Below are positions 2,387 to 11,205 of a DNA stretch of 64,000 nucleotides, piece after piece (the stretch's first letter is position 1; each line of letters begins with the position of its first letter). The notes below the pieces were generated by a model. The model was given only the letters and a program-made list of their open reading frames with translations. It was not told where the DNA came from and ran no database searches. The DNA is from Candidatus Neomarinimicrobiota bacterium. GTDB lineage: Bacteria > Fidelibacterota > UBA2242 > B5-G15. The stretch spans positions 1 through 64,000 of the forward strand of contig JACDNV010000008.1 of the NCBI GenBank assembly GCA_017656425.1, given 5' to 3'. The position numbers were made by a program, and so were the translations under genes.

Positions 2387-2962
2387 TTAAAACATATTGA
2401 TAAAATTAGTAATAATTATTTTCCCTACATCAGTGAGTATGCTCTCAGGGTGAAACTGTAAGCCTATTATTGGGTATTTCACGTGCGCAATTCCCATTAT
2501 AACGCCATCTTCAGTCCACGCGATTAGTTTCAATTGATCTGGTAATGAGTTTTTATCTATAATTAATGAATGATATCTTGTGGCTATAAAAGGTGAATCA
2601 ATGCTTTTAAATATGGAATGACCATTATGATAGATTTTTGATGTCTTTCCATGAAAAACACTACCTGATTTAACTATATTAGCACCAAATGCGTATCCTA
2701 TAGCTTGATGTCCAAGACAAATTCCCAGAATTGGAATTTTATCTTTGAAGTATTTTATCAATTCAACAGATATTCCAGCATTTTCTGGTCTACCTGGACC
2801 TGGAGATATTATTATACAATTTGGTTTTAATTTTTCAATCTCGCTAATGTTTATTTTGTCATTTCTGCTAACAATAACATCATTGCCCATAGAAGCTACA
2901 AGCTGGAATAAGTTATATGTGAAGGAATCATAATTATCTATCAAAAAGATTTTTTTTGTCAT
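2387..2962 (-). CDS. trpG: Anthranilate synthase glutamine amidotransferase subunit TrpG
   Basis: TrpG hydrolyses glutamine and passes ammonia to TrpE for anthranilate synthesis. The 191 residues are the full length of a class I amidotransferase. Visible landmarks are the IDNYDSFTYN start, the oxyanion segment SPGPGRPE (about 53-60), the nucleophile elbow GICLGHQ (Cys about 81) and the catalytic HPES near the C-terminus. It is the last gene of the trp operon, 17 bases after trpE. TrpG and PabA cannot be separated by sequence alone and the same subunit may also serve folate synthesis; its place beside trpE in the trp operon supports TrpG. Confidence 0.95.
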   Translation of the reverse strand: MTKKIFLIDNYDSFTYNLFQLVASMGNDVIVSRNDKINISEIEKLKPNCIIISPGPGRPENAGISVELIKYFKDKIPILGICLGHQAIGYAFGANIVKSGSVFHGKTSKIYHNGHSIFKSIDSPFIATRYHSLIIDKNSLPDQLKLIAWTEDGVIMGIAHVKYPIIGLQFHPESILTDVGKIIITNFINMF

Positions 2963-2979
2963 TATCTCCCCGTAACCTT

Positions 2980-4374
2980 TTATTTTTCAATATCTATATT
3001 TGTTGCAGCAAAAAGTGCAGAAAGTTTATTGATTGTCTCCTGGTATTCAAACTCCGGATCGGAATCAGCTACGATACCGGCGCCAGCCTGAATAAAGCCT
3101 CTATTTTTGTTTATAAAAATTGTTCTGATTGCTATGCAGAAATCCATGTTACCGTTAAAATCGAAGTAGCCAACAGCCCCGGCGTAGACACTTCGTCTTA
3201 AATCTTCGAGTTCATCTATTATCTCCATTGCTCTGATCTTGGGTGCGCCCGTTACTGTGCCTGCTGGGAAACATGCTGAGAATAGTGAAAAAGCATCTTC
3301 ATTATCCATCAACTCTCCCTCGACTGTTGATACAATATGCATGACTTTAGAATATCTACCAATTACCATTAATTCTGTTGGCTTAACCGTACCGGGCTTG
3401 CAGACTCTGCCAAGGTCGTTTCTTCCAAGGTCAACGAGCATAATGTGTTCTGCCCTCTCTTTTTCACTATTTATGAGTTCGATTTCAAGTTTTTTATCCT
3501 CATCTGGTGTCTTCCCTCTTGGACGAGTGCCAGCGATAGGCCTTGTAATAGCCACTCTGTTGATTAATTTAACAAGTGTTTCAGGAGAGGAACCAAGTAT
3601 ATAATAATCACCAAATTTTTGATAATACATATAAGGTGATGGATTGGTAATTCTCATTTTTTTGTATAGAAGGTATGGATCATTTTCTATTTTAAATTCA
3701 AATCTCTGAGACAAAACCACCTGGAAGATGTCTCCTTCAAAAATATAATCCTTGGCTTTTTTAACTATGTCTAGGAAGTAATTCCTTTCCATACAGTTTG
3801 TCATGTAATTTATTATTGGTTTATCGTCTAGTCTAATGTTATTTTTTGTTGATAGAAGTTCCCTTATTTCTGAAATTCTGTATTTATCAAGGGTGTCATA
3901 GTACTGGATTAAATATAAATTTTTCTCAAAATGGTCGACTACAAAAATTTCCGAAGGAAATATGAAGAATAAATCGGGAAAACCTGTATTGTCTGGATTT
4001 TTGTCAGGTATTTCTTCGAAAAATCTGATAAAATCATACGATATGAATCCAACTACTCCTCCTGAGAATACTGGAAATGTATGATGGTGTCTCCCAGATG
4101 CGACAAGCTCCTTTATAATTTTATAGGGGTTATCTTTTATTTTAAGGATTTCATTATTTTCAATAGTTATATTCTTACCTTTACTGCAAGCGGTCAGGAA
4201 TGGTCTGCCGCCTAAGATTGAGAATCGACCTGTTTCTACATTTTTATCAAGGGATTCGTATAAAAAGGAGTATTTCTCGCTTATATAAAGTCGTTCATAA
4301 ATCTCTGTCGGGTTCATAAAAAGATTTAGCTTGTTAATTGATAAATTTTTTCTAGGCAGATGTATCTTGTTCAT
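2980..4374 (-). CDS. trpE: Anthranilate synthase component I TrpE
   Basis: TrpE converts chorismate and ammonia to anthranilate, the committing step of tryptophan synthesis. The 464-residue protein has the chorismate-binding core: DIFQVVLSQRF, SPETLVKL, ITRPIAGTRPRG, VDLGRNDLGRVC and PAGTVTGAPKIRAMEIID. Near the N-terminus the segment FLYES corresponds to the LLES element that binds feedback-inhibiting tryptophan, so the enzyme is probably Trp-sensitive. It follows the DAHP-synthase-like gene with a 7-base gap and precedes trpG. Finding trpE and trpG at the end of the operon, not the beginning, is unusual. Confidence 0.95.
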   Translation of the reverse strand: MNKIHLPRKNLSINKLNLFMNPTEIYERLYISEKYSFLYESLDKNVETGRFSILGGRPFLTACSKGKNITIENNEILKIKDNPYKIIKELVASGRHHHTFPVFSGGVVGFISYDFIRFFEEIPDKNPDNTGFPDLFFIFPSEIFVVDHFEKNLYLIQYYDTLDKYRISEIRELLSTKNNIRLDDKPIINYMTNCMERNYFLDIVKKAKDYIFEGDIFQVVLSQRFEFKIENDPYLLYKKMRITNPSPYMYYQKFGDYYILGSSPETLVKLINRVAITRPIAGTRPRGKTPDEDKKLEIELINSEKERAEHIMLVDLGRNDLGRVCKPGTVKPTELMVIGRYSKVMHIVSTVEGELMDNEDAFSLFSACFPAGTVTGAPKIRAMEIIDELEDLRRSVYAGAVGYFDFNGNMDFCIAIRTIFINKNRGFIQAGAGIVADSDPEFEYQETINKLSALFAATNIDIEK

Positions 4375-4381
4375 TCCAGTA

Positions 4382-5293
4382 CTAATAAATTTGGTTTATA
4401 GAATTTTGTTTTAACTCCTTATAATCGACAATAATTCCGTTTAATTCCAGATTTCTAGCTATTTTTAAATAATGGTCAATTTCCTTTTTTGTTTCAAAAT
4501 TTTCTATATCCATAAGTACAGGCAGATATGTCTTTTCTTTCATATATAATATCGCTTCAATATCAGGAATTACTCTATTATGAACTGTCAGTGTACCACT
4601 TTCACACAAGATTACATTTAAATTTCCTTCATAAATTATATATTCAACAGACAGCAGGTATTCTTCGATGGATGCTGCAGGTGCCTTTTTGACTATTACT
4701 GGTTTTCTCGTTTTTCCTAATGCCCTGAGCAGTGAAAAATTTTGCATCTGGTTTTGTTCAATTACATAGGCATCAACATACTTTGAAGCAACTACAATCG
4801 AATCTGGTGAGTTTATTGAAAATATAATGGCAACATCCTGTAGGGTGTCGATAAATTTTTTTAAAAATTCAATATCGGATGGTAAGATATATTTGTTTTT
4901 TAGGTAGATTATTTTTATTCCTTTCGATATGAATTTATTTATTGATACCTTAATTTCATTTAAATTTACATTTTCGATATTGAAGGAAATAATTGGCGTA
5001 AAAGTTAAGGCTGAAATTTCTGTATTTTTGAGTTTTATAGAATACCCTTCTGGTTTGATCTCTCTGTGTATTAGTTTATATGATTTTGTAAAGTCGTAAA
5101 CCTTGCTGATAGAATCGAAGGAAATTAGTTCTACCATATCTATTTTTTTAGAATCGGGGATATGAATTACAAGAAGTTCTTCCTCTCCGCCCCTTAGTAT
5201 TCTTATCTCACTGGGATTTATATTAAATTTATTAAGAAAACTCTCCTTATCAAATTTTTTACTCTTTTCAAGAAGAGCTACTATCACTGCCAT
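4382..5293 (-). CDS. Degenerate type Iβ DAHP-synthase homologue, probable pseudoenzyme
   Basis: This 303-residue protein is built like type Iβ 3-deoxy-D-arabino-heptulosonate-7-phosphate synthase: an N-terminal ferredoxin-like regulatory domain (about 1-75, with ILRGGEEELLVI), a linker HREIKPEGYSIKL, then a TIM barrel. The late barrel is recognisable (MQNFSLLRALGKTRKPVIVK at 183-202, SIEEYLLSVEYI, NVILCESGT, LPVLMDIE). The catalytic elements are gone. The GPCSVE metal-Cys loop reads SFNIENVN (103-110), the KPRTSPYSFQG loop is missing (near 130-135), the metal-His DPSHSGG reads DIENFET, and the C-terminal Glu/Asp ligands are absent. It overlaps the trpA stop by one base (TAATG) and lies 7 bases before trpE. 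Loss of activity is inferred; a regulatory or partner role is possible. Confidence 0.8.
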   Translation of the reverse strand: MAVIVALLEKSKKFDKESFLNKFNINPSEIRILRGGEEELLVIHIPDSKKIDMVELISFDSISKVYDFTKSYKLIHREIKPEGYSIKLKNTEISALTFTPIISFNIENVNLNEIKVSINKFISKGIKIIYLKNKYILPSDIEFLKKFIDTLQDVAIIFSINSPDSIVVASKYVDAYVIEQNQMQNFSLLRALGKTRKPVIVKKAPAASIEEYLLSVEYIIYEGNLNVILCESGTLTVHNRVIPDIEAILYMKEKTYLPVLMDIENFETKKEIDHYLKIARNLELNGIIVDYKELKQNSINQIY

Positions 5294-6054
5294 TACAATG
5301 CTTCCTGGTATTGTTTTATTAAATCTTCAATATTTTCATTGTTTCTAATAGCCTCAATTATTTTTGAACCGATGATTACCCCATCGGCATATTTTTTTAA
5401 TTGTGTAATATGTTCCTTTTTTGAAATGCCAAATCCAACAGCCACTGGTTTATCTACTAATTTTTTTAATTTTTGTAGAAACGAAAAAACCTCCGAGTTC
5501 AACTGGTCTCTTGCACCTGTGACACCTGTTAGTGATACACAGTAAATAAAACCGGTAGAATTTTCATTGATCAGCTTTATCCTTAGCAGGTCAGTTACAG
5601 GAGTAACCAGGTTTATAAAATTTATACCTTTTGTGTCATAATTTTTCTTAATCTGGTTAATTTCTTCTACAGGTAAGTCAGGTATGATAATACCATCGAA
5701 TCCTGCTTCTTTCATATCTGTAAATATTCTATTAAGGCCGTAGGCTATTACAGGATTGTAGTATGTCATCATAACCAGGGGCATTTGAAGGTTGATTTTG
5801 CATACTTCATCGAACATTCTTGTGATTGAAGCACCATTCCTAAGAGCCATTTCTGATGCATACTGTATGGTTTTTCCATCAGCAACAGGATCGGAAAATG
5901 GAATTCCAACTTCTACAATATCTACATTTAGTTCACTGAACTTTTTTATAAGGTCAACACTTTCAGCAATAGAGGGGTAGCCGAAGGTTAGATACAGAAT
6001 TAGAGCGATTCTGTTATCTTTTTCAAGCTGATTGAATTTGTCTTCTATTTTCAT
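5293..6054 (-). CDS. trpA: Tryptophan synthase alpha chain TrpA
   Basis: TrpA cleaves indole-3-glycerol phosphate and channels indole to TrpB. The 253 residues form a standard-length TIM barrel. The catalytic glutamate lies in [14 protein letters not shown] (about residues 47-60), which also carries the catalytic aspartate, and the phosphate site is formed by GVTGAR and [10 protein letters not shown] and a C-terminal GVIIGSKI. The ATG overlaps the trpB stop by four bases (ATGA), so translation of the two is coupled, in line with their alpha-beta complex. Confidence 0.96.
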
Positions 6055-7235
6055 CTTCCATCTCCCAGAATAATGCCCAGGTCTTTATCACCTCTACCAG
6101 ATAGGTTAACGACAATTATTTTGTCTCTTTCAGCTATCTTCGACAGTTTTTCTGCATATGCAAGAGCGTGTGATGGTTCCAAGGCTGGTATAATTCCTTC
6201 ATACATTGTAAGATTTTTAAATGCCTGCACTGCTTCTTCATCGTATGCAACGGTGTATTCGACTCTGCCCGTATCCCTCAGGTAAGAATGCTCAGGTCCC
6301 ACACCCGGATAATCAAGCCCTGCAGAAATTGAGAATGTTTCCTCAATTTGTCCATCATTGTTTTGTAAAACATAGCTGAAACTTCCATGCAAAGCTCCTG
6401 GTTTACCATAATTTAATGATGCTGCATTTTTATTTTTATTCATTATACTCCCACCTGCCTCAACCCCAATGAGTTTTACTGATGTATTCTCAATAAAGTG
6501 GTAGAATATACCAATTGCATTGCTTCCTCCACCAACACACGCTACGATATAATCAGGTAGACATCCCTCTAGTTCTAATATTTGTTGCTTTGTTTCTTTG
6601 CCAATTACAGATTGGAATGTCCTTACTATTACCGGATATGGATGTGGACCAACTACAGAGCCAAGGAGATAATAGGTATCTCTAACATTTGTAACCCAAT
6701 ACCTTATTGCCTCATTGATTGCATCTTTTAATGTACCTGTACCTTTATCTATTGGAACTACCTTAGCCCCAAGAAGCTCCATTCTCTGGACATTGATCCT
6801 CTGCCTTAATGTATCCTTAAGCCCCATGAATACAATACATTCCATTCCAAATAATGCACAGGCAGTTGCTGTTGCAACACCATGCTGTCCTGCACCTGTT
6901 TCGGCGATTATCTTCTTCTTCCCCATTTTTTTTGCGAGGAGTATCTGTCCGATCGTATTATTTATCTTGTGTGCTCCTGTGTGTAAAAGATCTTCCCTCT
7001 TAAGGTATATTTTGGCATTACCAACATTTTTTGAATATCTTTCTGCGTAATAAAGAGGAGTTGGTCTGCCAGCATAATGTTTCAAATAGTAATCTAATTC
7101 CTCCCAGAAGAATTCATCATCGCAAATGTCTTTGAATGCTTCCTCGAGTTCTTTTAAAGCGGGTATAAGTGTTTCGGGTACATACTGACCTCCGAACTTT
7201 CCGAAATACCCCCTTTCATCAGGAAGTTTATTCAT
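6051..7235 (-). CDS. trpB: Tryptophan synthase beta chain TrpB
   Basis: TrpB is the PLP enzyme that joins indole and serine to give tryptophan. The 394-residue protein carries the PLP lysine in [18 protein letters not shown] (about residues 79-96), the phosphate-binding [10 protein letters not shown] loop, the [15 protein letters not shown] start, and the C-terminal NLSGRGDKD. Length and motifs fit TrpB1, the form that pairs with TrpA. The gene overlaps trpF by eight bases and trpA by four. Confidence 0.97.
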
Positions 7236-7839
7236 ACCTATATCCTTTCACATTTTGTATAAAATTCTTTACCAGCTTTTCATCCTTTTTCCCGGGTTTA
7301 GATTCAACTCCGGATGAAACATCGACCGCATAGGGTTTATATATTTTCAGTAATTCAACGACGTTTTCTGGATTTAATCCACCAGCAATTATATAGTCTC
7401 CTTCAATATTTTTTAACATTTCCCATTTAAATTTTATCCCACTGCCAGTGCCAGGATCAAGAAGTATCATGCTGGCTGAATTATATTTTTTTGCAAATTC
7501 CTTTATATCATCCGGGCTAGTTTCATTAGTAATTTTTAATCTCTTTATGTAGCGTTTATTGAATGACTCACACAGTTCCGGTGTTTCTTCTCCATGAAAT
7601 TGAAGAATATCTACGGGCACTTTCTTCAATAATTTTTCTATGAAGTTATAAGAATTATCCATGAGTACAGCAACTGTGATGACAAATGGTGGTATAGAGC
7701 TTATAATTTCTCTGGCAGTATCGATGGAAACTTTTCTTTTTGATTCAGCAAAAATTAACCCAATGGCATCAGCTCCATATTTTGCAGCTATTAAGGCATC
7801 TCCAGTGTTTGTAATACCACAGATTTTCACCCTTATCAT
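7228..7839 (-). CDS. trpF: Phosphoribosylanthranilate isomerase TrpF
   Basis: TrpF isomerises N-(5-phosphoribosyl)anthranilate to CdRP. The 203-residue single-domain TIM barrel starts with VKICGITN, whose Cys is the catalytic base, and has [26 protein letters not shown] (catalytic Asp) and [10 protein letters not shown] near the phosphate site, ending with [15 protein letters not shown]. It lies three bases after trpC and overlaps trpB by eight, as a stand-alone gene and not fused to trpC. Confidence 0.95.
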
Positions 7840-7842
7840 GGG

Positions 7843-8616
7843 TCAGTACTCCAGTAGGTTTTTTAAAAATTCTTGTTTATTTGTTGATTTCATTAAAGAT
7901 GTGCCAATAAGTATTGCATCAAACCCAGCCTCAGTCAGTAGTTTAACATGGACTTTTGACTTTATCCCACTCTCGCTGATTTTTATTATATCATCTGGAA
8001 TTAGCTCTATCAGCCTTAGTGAATTCTCTAAATCCACTTTAAAAGTTTTAAGGTTTCTATTGTTTATACCAACAATGTACGCTCCACAGTCCAGAGCAAT
8101 TTCAAGTTCTGATCTATCATGTACCTCCACTACCGGATCAATCGAAAGGTTTCTTGAAATTTTTATATAATTTTTCAACTGTTTTTTTGATAGAATTGAT
8201 GTGATCAAAAGCATCGCATCTGCTCCTGCATAGCATGATTCATAAATTTGATATTCGTCGATTATAAAATCTTTCCTTAAGACAGGTACACCAGAAATAT
8301 TATCTTTTATCTGTTTTAAATGTTTAATAGAACCTCCAAAATACTTTTCATCAGTAAGTACCGAAATGCAGCTTGCTCCCCCTTTCACATAGTCTTTAGC
8401 AATTTTAACTGGGTCAAAATCTTCTGCTATTATCCCAAATGAAGGAGATTTCCTTTTTACTTCTGCTATAATTTTAATTTTATCCCTTTCCCTTAATTTT
8501 TTATAGAATCTCCCTTTACTATAATTATCTGCTCTGATAGGCTTTAATGGGTTTTCGCGCTTTAAATGTTCCACTTCATGCCTTTTTTTCTGTACTATTT
8601 CATCAAGTATGTTCAA
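7843..8616 (-). CDS. trpC: Indole-3-glycerol-phosphate synthase TrpC
   Basis: TrpC closes the indole ring from CdRP. The 257 residues carry the family landmarks: ILDEIVQKKRHEVE at the N-terminus, the IAEVKRKSPSFG strand with catalytic Lys, VLTDEKYFGGS, VLRKDFIIDEYQIYE, VGINNRNLKTF and SESGIKSK. The ATG overlaps the trpD stop by four bases. Confidence 0.96.
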   Translation of the reverse strand: MNILDEIVQKKRHEVEHLKRENPLKPIRADNYSKGRFYKKLRERDKIKIIAEVKRKSPSFGIIAEDFDPVKIAKDYVKGGASCISVLTDEKYFGGSIKHLKQIKDNISGVPVLRKDFIIDEYQIYESCYAGADAMLLITSILSKKQLKNYIKISRNLSIDPVVEVHDRSELEIALDCGAYIVGINNRNLKTFKVDLENSLRLIELIPDDIIKISESGIKSKVHVKLLTEAGFDAILIGTSLMKSTNKQEFLKNLLEY

Positions 8617-9635
8617 GCCTCACCTCTTGTAAAACGAATTAGTTCATTTAGTTTTTCCATTGCCCTGCCTGAATCAATAGATTCTTCTGCCATGGTGATT
8701 CCATCCTCTATTGATCCTGCTTTGCCTGCCACGTAGAAACCTGCAGCGGCGTTAAGGACAATGGCATCTCTGTATGGACCCATTTCACCTTTTAATAACC
8801 TCAATGTGATCTCCGCATTTTCCTTTGCATCACCACCTTTTATGGATTCAATAGGATGTCTGGAAATACCAAAATCTTCTGGAGTGATTTCATAGCTTTT
8901 TACTTCATTGTCTCTAAGTTCATAAATGATGGTGCTATTGGAGATGGATATTTCATCTACGCCATCTTTGCCGTAAACAACAAGGCAATGCTTGTGTCCC
9001 ATCTTTTTAAACACTTCGATGACTTTTTGTATAAGATCTTCCGAGAAAACCCCCATCAATTGTCTTTTGACATTTACAGGATTTGCCAGTGGTCCAATAA
9101 CATTGAAAAGCGTTTTGAATTTTAGCTCTCTTCTTGGATTCATTACATTTTTCATTGCGGTGTGAAAAACAGGTGCAAACAGGAAACCGATTCCAATCTC
9201 TGTAATTGCCTGAACAGCTTTCATTGGGGGTATACTTATATCGACACCGAGTTCAGCCAGTAGGTCTGCACTACCACATTTACTTGTAATTGACCTGTTG
9301 CCGTGTTTAGCTACCCTCACACCTCCACCGGCGAGAACGATAGAAGCTACTGTGCTGATATTAAAGGTGCCTTTTTTATCGCCACCGGTACCACATGTAT
9401 CTATCAAATCATAACAATCCAGATGAAATTCACTCACTTTATCCTTGAGAGATTTTGCAAATCCATATAATATCTCCGGAGTTTCTCCCTTTAATTTAAT
9501 TGCAGTTAGTATGGCACCAATCTGCGCTTCCGTCATCTCTCCATTCATCATTTTATTCGCTAACAAATATGCTTCTTCCTCATCAATCGGTGACGGGTCC
9601 TCTACAAATCTTATCAATAATTGTTCAACTTCCAT
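8613..9635 (-). CDS. trpD: Anthranilate phosphoribosyltransferase TrpD
   Basis: TrpD transfers phosphoribose from PRPP to anthranilate. The 340-residue protein has the PRPP-binding DTCGTGGDKKGTFNIST loop, the KHGNRSITSKCGSADLL segment, and the anthranilate-site NPRRELKFKTLFNVIGPLAN. It is the first structural gene of the operon. An AGGAGG ribosome-binding site (minus strand, 9644-9649) sits eight bases before the ATG. The attenuator terminator ends only about 20 bases upstream, so transcription into this gene is decided immediately before it. Confidence 0.96.
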   Translation of the reverse strand: MEVEQLLIRFVEDPSPIDEEEAYLLANKMMNGEMTEAQIGAILTAIKLKGETPEILYGFAKSLKDKVSEFHLDCYDLIDTCGTGGDKKGTFNISTVASIVLAGGGVRVAKHGNRSITSKCGSADLLAELGVDISIPPMKAVQAITEIGIGFLFAPVFHTAMKNVMNPRRELKFKTLFNVIGPLANPVNVKRQLMGVFSEDLIQKVIEVFKKMGHKHCLVVYGKDGVDEISISNSTIIYELRDNEVKSYEITPEDFGISRHPIESIKGGDAKENAEITLRLLKGEMGPYRDAIVLNAAAGFYVAGKAGSIEDGITMAEESIDSGRAMEKLNELIRFTRGEA

Positions 9636-9657
9636 TTTTTAACCCTCCTATTTAAAA

Positions 9658-9694
9658 ACAAAAAAGCCGTGGTAGTTATCCACTATCCACGGCT
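9658..9694 (-). terminator. trp attenuator: rho-independent terminator hairpin
   Basis: On the minus strand an AGCCGTGG / CCACGGCT stem (8 bp, 9687-9694 with 9665-9672) is extended by TAG/CTA after a single bulged A, closes a 7-base loop and is followed by a run of six T and, after a G, five more. This is a canonical intrinsic terminator lying between the leader peptide and trpD. Its upstream arm is also needed for the competing antiterminator. Confidence 0.92.
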
Positions 9695-9730
9695 CCCAAA
9701 AAGGAAATTGATAGAGCCTACGGATAGTGG
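9680..9730 (-). promoter_or_regulatory. trp antiterminator pairing (regions 2 and 3)
   Basis: The end of the leader-peptide region (9714-9730) is complementary to the first arm of the terminator. CCACTATCC pairs with GGATAGTGG (9 bp, 9722-9730 with 9680-9688), and GGCTC pairs with GAGCC (5 bp, 9714-9718 with 9691-9695). The two segments are separated by a small internal loop, with an 18-base connecting loop. This pairing excludes the terminator. Region 2 can instead pair with the Trp-codon stretch itself (ATGGTGG against CCACTAT with one G-U). A ribosome stalled at the Trp codons would therefore favour antitermination. Confidence 0.88.
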
Positions 9731-9810
9731 ACAAATCCTCTCTGCCACCACCACCATTTTAATAGATAACCAAATTCTATTTTTAATTTAAACTTGCTAC
9801 TCACACTCAT
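9718..9810 (-). CDS. trpL: trp operon leader peptide with four tandem Trp codons
   Basis: A 30-codon frame starts at ATG 9810 (MSVSSKFKLK) and ends at TAG 9718-9720. Codons 19-22 are four consecutive TGG (9745-9756), followed by QRGFVHYP. Its stop codon lies inside antiterminator arm 2, as expected for a ribosome that reaches the stop and masks region 2. Position, Trp codons and overlap with the hairpins make this a leader peptide for ribosome-mediated attenuation. No Shine-Dalgarno sequence precedes the ATG. It is too short for ordinary gene finders. Confidence 0.93.
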   Translation of the reverse strand: MSVSSKFKLKIEFGYLLKWWWWQRGFVHYP

Positions 9811-9818
9811 GGCAATCA

Positions 9819-9847
9819 ATAATATATAATAATTTAATTAAGTGCAA
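9819..9847 (-). promoter_or_regulatory. Candidate trp operon promoter
   Basis: On the minus strand TTGCAC (9842-9847) and TATTAT (9819-9824) are separated by 17 bases. The -10 matches the sigma-70 consensus at 5 of 6 positions, the -35 at only 3 of 6. Transcription would begin almost at the trpL ATG, giving a leaderless leader peptide, which would explain the missing Shine-Dalgarno. The whole region is AT-rich and an upstream TATAAAAT is an alternative, so this is tentative. Confidence 0.35.
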
Positions 9848-10047: not shown

Positions 10048-11205
10048 ATGAAAGATAAATTAAAGAATAAAGATAGTGTACGTTTAAATAATAGTTACTT
10101 AGCTAAAGGCTTAGAGGGAGTTGTAGTAAAAGAGACTACTATATCTATGGTTGATGGTGTTAACGGGGTTTTAATATATCGTGGCTATGATGTCAAGGAG
10201 CTGGCAGAATATTCAAATTTTGAAGAAGTAGCTTTTCTTATTTATAATGGATACCTGCCTACATTTAAAGAGTTAACTATTTTTCAGAAAAAACTCAGAG
10301 AGTATAAATACCTTGATAAAAAATATATTGATTTTCTTCAAATTATTTCGGAAGCCCATGACTATATGGATATTCTAAAAATTGCAGTTGCATACATAGG
10401 TGCTTTGGAAAATGAAAAAGATGATATTTTTAATATATCCTGTAGACTTGTATCAATAATGCCAATGATTTTATCCTATTCTTATAGAATAAAAAATAAA
10501 TTACCAATTATTGAGCCGTCTGATAAGTTGACTCATATAGAAAACTTTTATTATATGTTTCATGGCAAGTTGCCTGAAGATGATATAAAGAAAGCTCTTG
10601 ATATATCAATGATTTTACATGCAGAGCAGGGTATAAATGCTTCGACATTTTCTGCTTTAGTAATTTCTTCCAGCATGACTGATATTTATTCTGCTATCTC
10701 TGGAGCAATTGGTTGCCTCAAAGGATATCTTCATGGTGGTGCAAACAGAAAAGTATTGGATATGCTTGATGAGGTTGGCTCAGTGGAAAATGTTTCAGAA
10801 TATGTTGAAAATTGCATAAAAAATAAAAAAAGGGTAATGGGATTTGGACACAGAATATATAAGACCTATGATCCACGTTCTATAGTCTTAAAAAAAATTG
10901 CTACTAATTTATCTAAGAAATATAGTTCCAAGTACCTTGATATTGCGATTAAAATGGAAGAGGAGGTTGTGAAACGACTGGGTCCTAAAAAGATTTTCCC
11001 AAATGTTGATTTTTATTCTGGCATAGTATATGATATGCTCGGATTCCCCAGTGAGGTTTTTACTCCGCTGTTTGCTGTGGCAAGGATTGTAGGATGGACA
11101 GCTCATATTATGGAATACAGAAAAGATAACAGAATATTTAGGCCCGTTGCCAAGTACACAGGACCTGAGAATCTGAAATATGTTCCAATTGAGGAGAGAG
11201 GATAA
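10048..11205 (+). CDS. Citrate synthase family protein
   Basis: This 385-residue enzyme condenses an acyl-CoA (acetyl- or propionyl-CoA) with oxaloacetate. The catalytic triad is visible: His in LHAEQGINAST (about 190), His in GFGHRIYKTYDPRS (about 270) and Asp in NVDFYSG (about 320), with the CoA-binding LHGGANRKVLDML segment. The length fits the short, dimeric Gram-positive/archaeal type. It is followed without a gap (TAATG) by a LeuC-family and then a LeuD-family subunit, so its product is probably passed to that hydratase. Whether it makes citrate or 2-methylcitrate cannot be told here. It diverges from the trp operon. Confidence 0.88.
   Translation: MKDKLKNKDSVRLNNSYLAKGLEGVVVKETTISMVDGVNGVLIYRGYDVKELAEYSNFEEVAFLIYNGYLPTFKELTIFQKKLREYKYLDKKYIDFLQIISEAHDYMDILKIAVAYIGALENEKDDIFNISCRLVSIMPMILSYSYRIKNKLPIIEPSDKLTHIENFYYMFHGKLPEDDIKKALDISMILHAEQGINASTFSALVISSSMTDIYSAISGAIGCLKGYLHGGANRKVLDMLDEVGSVENVSEYVENCIKNKKRVMGFGHRIYKTYDPRSIVLKKIATNLSKKYSSKYLDIAIKMEEEVVKRLGPKKIFPNVDFYSGIVYDMLGFPSEVFTPLFAVARIVGWTAHIMEYRKDNRIFRPVAKYTGPENLKYVPIEERG

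Follow-up and report, generated by a model that had tools for sequence, protein, structure and literature searches.

The trp operon on the minus strand of the window (the whole 64,000-nucleotide stretch that was analysed) is very probably controlled by a classical four-segment ribosome-mediated transcription attenuator, which would respond to charged tRNA-Trp and govern trpDCFBA, a DAHPS-like gene and trpEG together. Computation establishes the parts of this attenuator, their spacing, their alternative and mutually exclusive folds, and their conservation in a sister genus.

Leader anatomy and the predicted switch

The minus strand from 9810 to 9660 reads ATGAGTGTGAGTAGCAAGTTTAAATTAAAAATAGAATTTGGTTATCTATTAAAATGGTGGTGGTGGCAGAGAGGATTTGTCCACTATCCGTAGGCTCTATCAATTTCCTTTTTGGGAGCCGTGGATAGTGGATAACTACCACGGCTTTTTT and lies in a 412-nt intergenic region. 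It opens with a leader peptide ORF of 30 codons plus TAG (9718..9810, minus strand) that encodes MSVSSKFKLKIEFGYLLKWWWWQRGFVHYP, and four consecutive TGG codons at 9756-9745 form region 1, the regulatory Trp codons. The original prediction of a 30-codon leader with four consecutive TGG was confirmed base by base. No short ORF with WWW or WWWW arose when the intergenic region was shuffled 5000 times with its dinucleotides preserved, and the folding of the leader stood out against shuffles (z=-4.33).

Region 2 (9713..9734, minus strand) consists of TTGTCCACTATCC (9734-9722) and GGCTCT, spans the last leader codons and the stop, and provides the 5' arm of the antiterminator. Region 3 (9676..9697, minus strand) consists of GGGAGCC and GGATAGTGGATAA (9688-9676); it provides the 3' arm and overlaps the 5' arm of the terminator. 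In the antiterminator, TTGTCCACTATCC pairs with GGATAGTGGATAA and GGCTCT with GGGAGCC, at -29.5 to -31.7 kcal/mol. The 14 bp in two segments claimed beforehand are present, but the structure is longer, with about 14 bp plus 6 and 3 bp. The corresponding stalled-state segment gave z=-7.06 against 200 shuffles in the window and z=-5.72 in L002, the leader of the sister genus.

The intrinsic terminator (3:4; 9660..9694, minus strand; -18.2 kcal/mol) has the form AGCCGTGG-A-TAGT-ggata-ACTA-CCACGGCT followed by T6. Its arms AGCCGTGG (9694-9687) and CCACGGCT (9672-9665) make the eight perfect base pairs that had been predicted, with the T-run at 9665-9660, and the stem extends inward past a bulged A through a TAGT/ACTA helix. 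This inner helix accounts for the conservation of the CTA in region 4, and a dedicated pairing of that CTA with the Trp codons was rejected. A terminator scan of the window region, limited to loops of 3-8 and perfect stems, returned no match, probably because the 8-bp stem encloses 14 bases and so exceeds the loop limit.

Folding of the minus-strand leader, the check proposed with the original prediction, gave competing antiterminator and terminator structures that exclude each other. The parts stand in the predicted order before trpD, and their spacing suits control by a ribosome. The Trp codons can indeed pair with the antiterminator arm, in a 1:2 hairpin of -13.8 kcal/mol. This protector pairing is weaker than 2:3, which makes its part in vivo uncertain, and in the minimum free energy fold of the full untranslated RNA the Trp codons pair with the 3' arm of the terminator, not with region 2.

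In the cell, the leader would be expected to switch with the supply of Trp. When Trp is scarce, the leading ribosome would stall on the UGG run (9756-9745) with its front edge ending at about the start of region 2; the 2:3 antiterminator would then form and RNA polymerase would enter trpD. When Trp is sufficient, the ribosome would reach the UAG at 9720 and cover region 2, so that the 3:4 terminator forms and transcription stops at about 9660. To model these states, we cut away the RNA as far as the leading edge of a ribosome whose A site held a chosen codon, and then computed the terminator probability. In the window and in L002 alike, the predicted probability was 0.00 when the ribosome occupied either the first or the last Trp codon, and 1.00 when it occupied the stop. 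With the spacer shuffled, it averaged 1.00 and none of 60 shuffles came as low as the real sequence. Region 2 runs from the assumed footprint edge of a ribosome stalled on the last Trp codon to the stop codon. Untranslated RNA at equilibrium is predicted to read through (terminator probability 0.00), a prediction that kinetic folding of 1:2 may change.

From the trpD-first WWWW family we compared two members, the window genome and a genome of the sister genus (G001), whose TrpD is 63% identical to that of the window. There, trpD is preceded by MDMGVFKSNKYSWLKWWWWKTGKVHYP and a stop codon, with both arms (GTCCACTATCC and GGATAGTGGA) and the terminator (-18.5 kcal/mol) as in the window. Between the two genera, conservation of the leader is highest across the Trp codons, region 2 (with GTCCACTATCC identical), region 3, the terminator and the T-run. 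Conservation of the Trp codons and of the alternative pairings in a relative, on which the original prediction had been staked, was thus found. The outer antiterminator pair carries one change, from G.U to G-C, with pairing kept; the covariation sought in relatives is present to that extent but minimal, the comparison being one of two sequences. Within the peptide, the N-terminal halves are not conserved, whereas the C-terminal half keeps the pattern KWWWW..G.VHYP before the stop.

These peptide patterns bear on the idea that the leader peptide or a released short RNA acts in trans besides attenuation, as do peTrpL and rnTrpL of Sinorhizobium meliloti. The window leader may resemble that system in that peTrpL, which acts in trans, is encoded by a leaderless mRNA (PMC7298713) and the window leader is predicted to be nearly leaderless too. 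We nevertheless consider a trans role unlikely, given the unconserved N-terminal halves of the two peptides and a C-terminal VHYP whose conservation is explained by the pairing of region 2. Still less probable is a hairpin that merely ends an upstream transcript or acts as a constitutive intergenic terminator, with a fortuitous four-Trp ORF in front of it. A terminator between divergent genes would require no regulation; however, the nearest upstream gene (citrate synthase-like, starting at 10048) is itself divergent, with no same-strand gene directly upstream of the leader, WWW and WWWW were missing from all the shuffles, and the conservation of WWWW and both alternative arms in L002 largely refutes this explanation. 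A TRAP-bound leader or a tRNA-Trp T-box, both of which govern Firmicutes trp genes through competition of terminator and antiterminator, can be dismissed with near certainty, as neither mtrB (PF02081) nor a match to the T-box covariance model (RF00230) was found in the 99.7% complete genome by searches whose controls worked. The ribosome-mediated attenuator is the reading that we keep. Its leader matched none of the Rfam covariance models, including that of the proteobacterial Trp leader, even at E<=10.

Host operon and start of the leader

The host genome (2.8 Mb) has the Candidatus Neomarinimicrobiota MAG QNCQ01000245 as its nearest named relative. It belongs to Fidelibacterota (the current NCBI name; Marinimicrobia/SAR406), a mostly uncultured phylum within the FCB group, in agreement with the earlier description of the genome as FCB-like. 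The operon on the minus strand has the order trpD-trpC-trpF-trpB-trpA-(DAHPS-like)-trpE-trpG. The first structural gene, trpD (8613..9635), scores 406.8 bits with TIGR01245 (cut-off 199) and has an AGGAGG Shine-Dalgarno sequence at 9644..9649; the remaining genes occupy 2387..8616. The attenuator precedes trpD because trpD heads the operon and trpE-trpG come last. The claim that it stands before trpD and not trpE is correct in that trpD follows directly, but trpE is also downstream of the attenuator in the same gene cluster.

A DAHP-synthase-like gene lies between trpA and trpE in both genera (window 4382-5293, minus strand; L029 1592-2464, minus strand). In both, it lacks the usual GPC..E and RGGA.KPRTSPYSFQG motifs, and two full-length DAHP synthase matches lie elsewhere in the genome (C1:242970 and C2:194888). 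The gene in the trp operon is perhaps a regulatory pseudoenzyme.

A candidate -10 hexamer TATTAT (9819..9824, minus strand) lies 8 nt before the leader ATG, and a candidate -35 hexamer TTGCAC (9842..9847, minus strand) lies 17 nt before it; the promoter score by itself falls short of significance (z=0.3), and the start site is placed from these hexamers. In L002, TTGCGT-17-TATTAT with equal 17-nt spacing occupies almost the same position. No clear Shine-Dalgarno sequence lies upstream of the leader ATG, whereas a match of at least 4 occurs in 30 of 48 window genes versus 17% of random positions. Among the 57 leaders found across the phylum (see below), the best promoter-like site lies 2-10 nt from the start codon in 33, and Shine-Dalgarno matches never exceed 4 nt. 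This arrangement suggests that the leader-peptide mRNA of the window is likely near-leaderless and that the leader ORF would be translated in that form. In L045, L046, L048, L054 and others, the trpE start codon follows the T-run of the terminator by no more than about 15 nt and has no visible Shine-Dalgarno sequence, unlike trpD of the window.

Trp leaders across Fidelibacterota

A TrpE search of 245 genomes of the phylum gave matches in 69, and we scanned the regions before trpE for a terminator and, ending ahead of it, a Trp-containing ORF. A Trp-containing leader with a terminator precedes the trp operon in 57 genomes, including the two trpD-first ones; in the others it precedes trpE. Shuffles of the same 190 nt rarely placed an aromatic Trp-containing ORF before the terminator (p<=0.01 in 51 of the 57, p<=0.05 in 55). 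The scan suggests that the trp operon within Fidelibacterota usually has such a leader. A clean attenuator of this kind had been called uncommon; that may hold for the literature, but within the phylum it is the usual arrangement before the trp operon. Several other trpE upstream regions end at contig edges. The trpE-first operons of three genomes of family f14 (L057, L063 and L071) have no recognisable Trp leader or terminator before them, whereas L050 and L055 of the same family do, and it is possible that attenuation was lost in the former three. In L042 and L065, the Trp leader has a second strong terminator (e.g. ATGGGGCAGAGGATT/AAACCTTTGCCCCGT) on its upstream side, probably the end of the preceding gene.

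The equilibrium switch test succeeds for the window and L002 and for five other leaders. We rejected it as a universal test, since the terminators of most phylum leaders are so stable that they win in every state, and for this reason the nascent transcript before the 3' arm of the terminator was also scored. By energy this test was strong, the nascent antiterminator having z<-2 against shuffles in 39 of 57 leaders; its pairing-probability version was weak (p<=0.05 in 9 of 57; window p=0.22). In one subgroup of 12 leaders, the final codons (GGGGTT, mostly Gly-Val) contain region 2, whose pairing partner is the AACCCC terminator arm. Thirteen of 14 tested antiterminator pairs are kept in at least 9 of the 12 sequences, as counted on an alignment corrected by hand where MAFFT had misplaced the terminator arm in three sequences, a correction that leans towards the structure. 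One kept pair shows a G-C/A-T exchange (7 versus 4 sequences), and others show U.G/U-A or G-C/G.U.

The codons of these leaders vary with the genes behind them. In many families, trpEGDCFBA is followed by genes for prephenate dehydratase, prephenate dehydrogenase or chorismate mutase, DAHP synthase and EPSP synthase (Pfam). Leaders of such trp-aro operons mix the aromatic residues in clusters, for example NYYSWYWFF in L045 and L046, YYWWYYY in L037, FNYYWYY and FYFWYY; a few of the leaders have a single Trp. Mixed Phe/Tyr/Trp leaders stand upstream of trpE in L035, L043, L045, L046, L048, L054, L058 and others. Leaders of trp-only operons read NNWWW, FWWWHN or RWWKN. Across 44 genomes, the mean number of Phe and Tyr no more than six residues away from the Trp codons was 4.85 where the operon has Phe/Tyr genes (26 genomes, 9 families), 2.44 where DAHPS or EPSPS alone was detected (9 genomes) and 0.89 in trp-only operons (9 genomes); all classes are raised in that aromatic content was one of the grounds on which leaders were chosen, and the middle class is imperfect because f9 operons hold a chorismate-mutase-like ORF missed by the homology search. 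In L113 of that family, this ORF lies between trpA and a class II DAHP synthase gene (6624-6914, reverse complement coordinates). Independent contrasts of leader Phe/Tyr against operon content gave r=0.52 (p=3e-4) on a midpoint-rooted tree of concatenated Trp proteins built from the same operons. Two Phe/Tyr operons (f14 and f15) are exceptions, with only two Phe/Tyr in the leader. AT-richness was rejected as the source of the Phe/Tyr codons, as the class rich in them has the lowest flanking AT (0.641 versus 0.691-0.724). The window leader is of the Trp-run type, and its operon has a DAHPS-like gene.

We lean towards the view that Fidelibacterota commonly attenuate trp and trp-aro supraoperons through leader peptides whose codons have been retuned to operon content. 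Operons with prephenate dehydratase, prephenate dehydrogenase or chorismate mutase genes would have mixed clusters sensing Phe, Tyr and Trp, trp-only operons would have plain Trp runs, and the WWWW of the window would mark a lineage rearranged to trpD-first. A mixed leader before a trp-aro supraoperon is a possible three-way aromatic attenuator. The correlation of codons and operons would form a natural series in which evolution altered which amino acids a single regulatory device responds to. It predicts aromatic cross-regulation, with starvation for Phe or Tyr inducing the Trp genes, and leader codons may help to predict the products of uncharacterised operons.

Comparison with known systems

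The attenuation mechanism itself is classical. In trpL of E. coli and Salmonella (trpLEDCBA), tandem Trp codons, 1:2, 2:3 and 3:4 pairings and an intrinsic terminator are combined so that the position of the ribosome decides the outcome. The window has the same short Trp-codon ORF, three alternative pairings and terminator, with predicted control by ribosome position. It differs from E. coli trpL in having four Trp codons instead of two, in preceding trpD in a trpD-first operon, in the lack of an Rfam match and in a predicted near-leaderless start. The E. coli trp operon terminates without translation, whereas the untranslated RNA of the window is predicted to read through at equilibrium. In multivalent ilv leader attenuators, one leader senses several amino acids, in keeping with what the operon makes. 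Other Fidelibacterota follow a parallel logic in their Phe/Tyr/Trp leaders, although ilv concerns branched-chain and not aromatic amino acids.

A survey of 2010 regarded leader-peptide attenuators as undemonstrated outside Proteobacteria and Actinobacteria, save for an atypical erm leader, and added Firmicutes (PMC2965389). We found no report of a trp leader-peptide attenuator in Fidelibacterota in the open-access papers searched, and the phylum-wide, operon-matched aromatic version seems to be undescribed. Leader-peptide attenuators are thus placed, as the usual trp arrangement, in a deep and mostly uncultured phylum of the FCB group.

Other known systems share single traits with the window leader. 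In trpL-trpE(G) of S. meliloti, the transcript starts at the leader ATG (PMC7298713); the window has a Trp-run leader peptide as well and may have a near-leaderless start, whereas the operons differ and, outside the Trp run, the peptides show no evident similarity. Actinobacterial trp attenuators (Corynebacterium, Streptomyces) have UGG repeats, a terminator, an antiterminator and shared complementary patterns, as described in passages of PMC1262725. The first three features recur in the window; the actinobacterial attenuators belong to another phylum and use Trp codons only, and those passages describe no start lacking a Shine-Dalgarno sequence. Passages of PMC1173090 list attenuated aromatic supraoperons from Merino's database, e.g. 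in Desulfovibrio vulgaris, Enterococcus and Streptococcus. Those passages concern phyla other than Fidelibacterota, and leader peptides are mentioned nowhere in the paper (0 occurrences), but the supraoperons resemble those of Fidelibacterota in being large aromatic gene clusters behind predicted attenuators.
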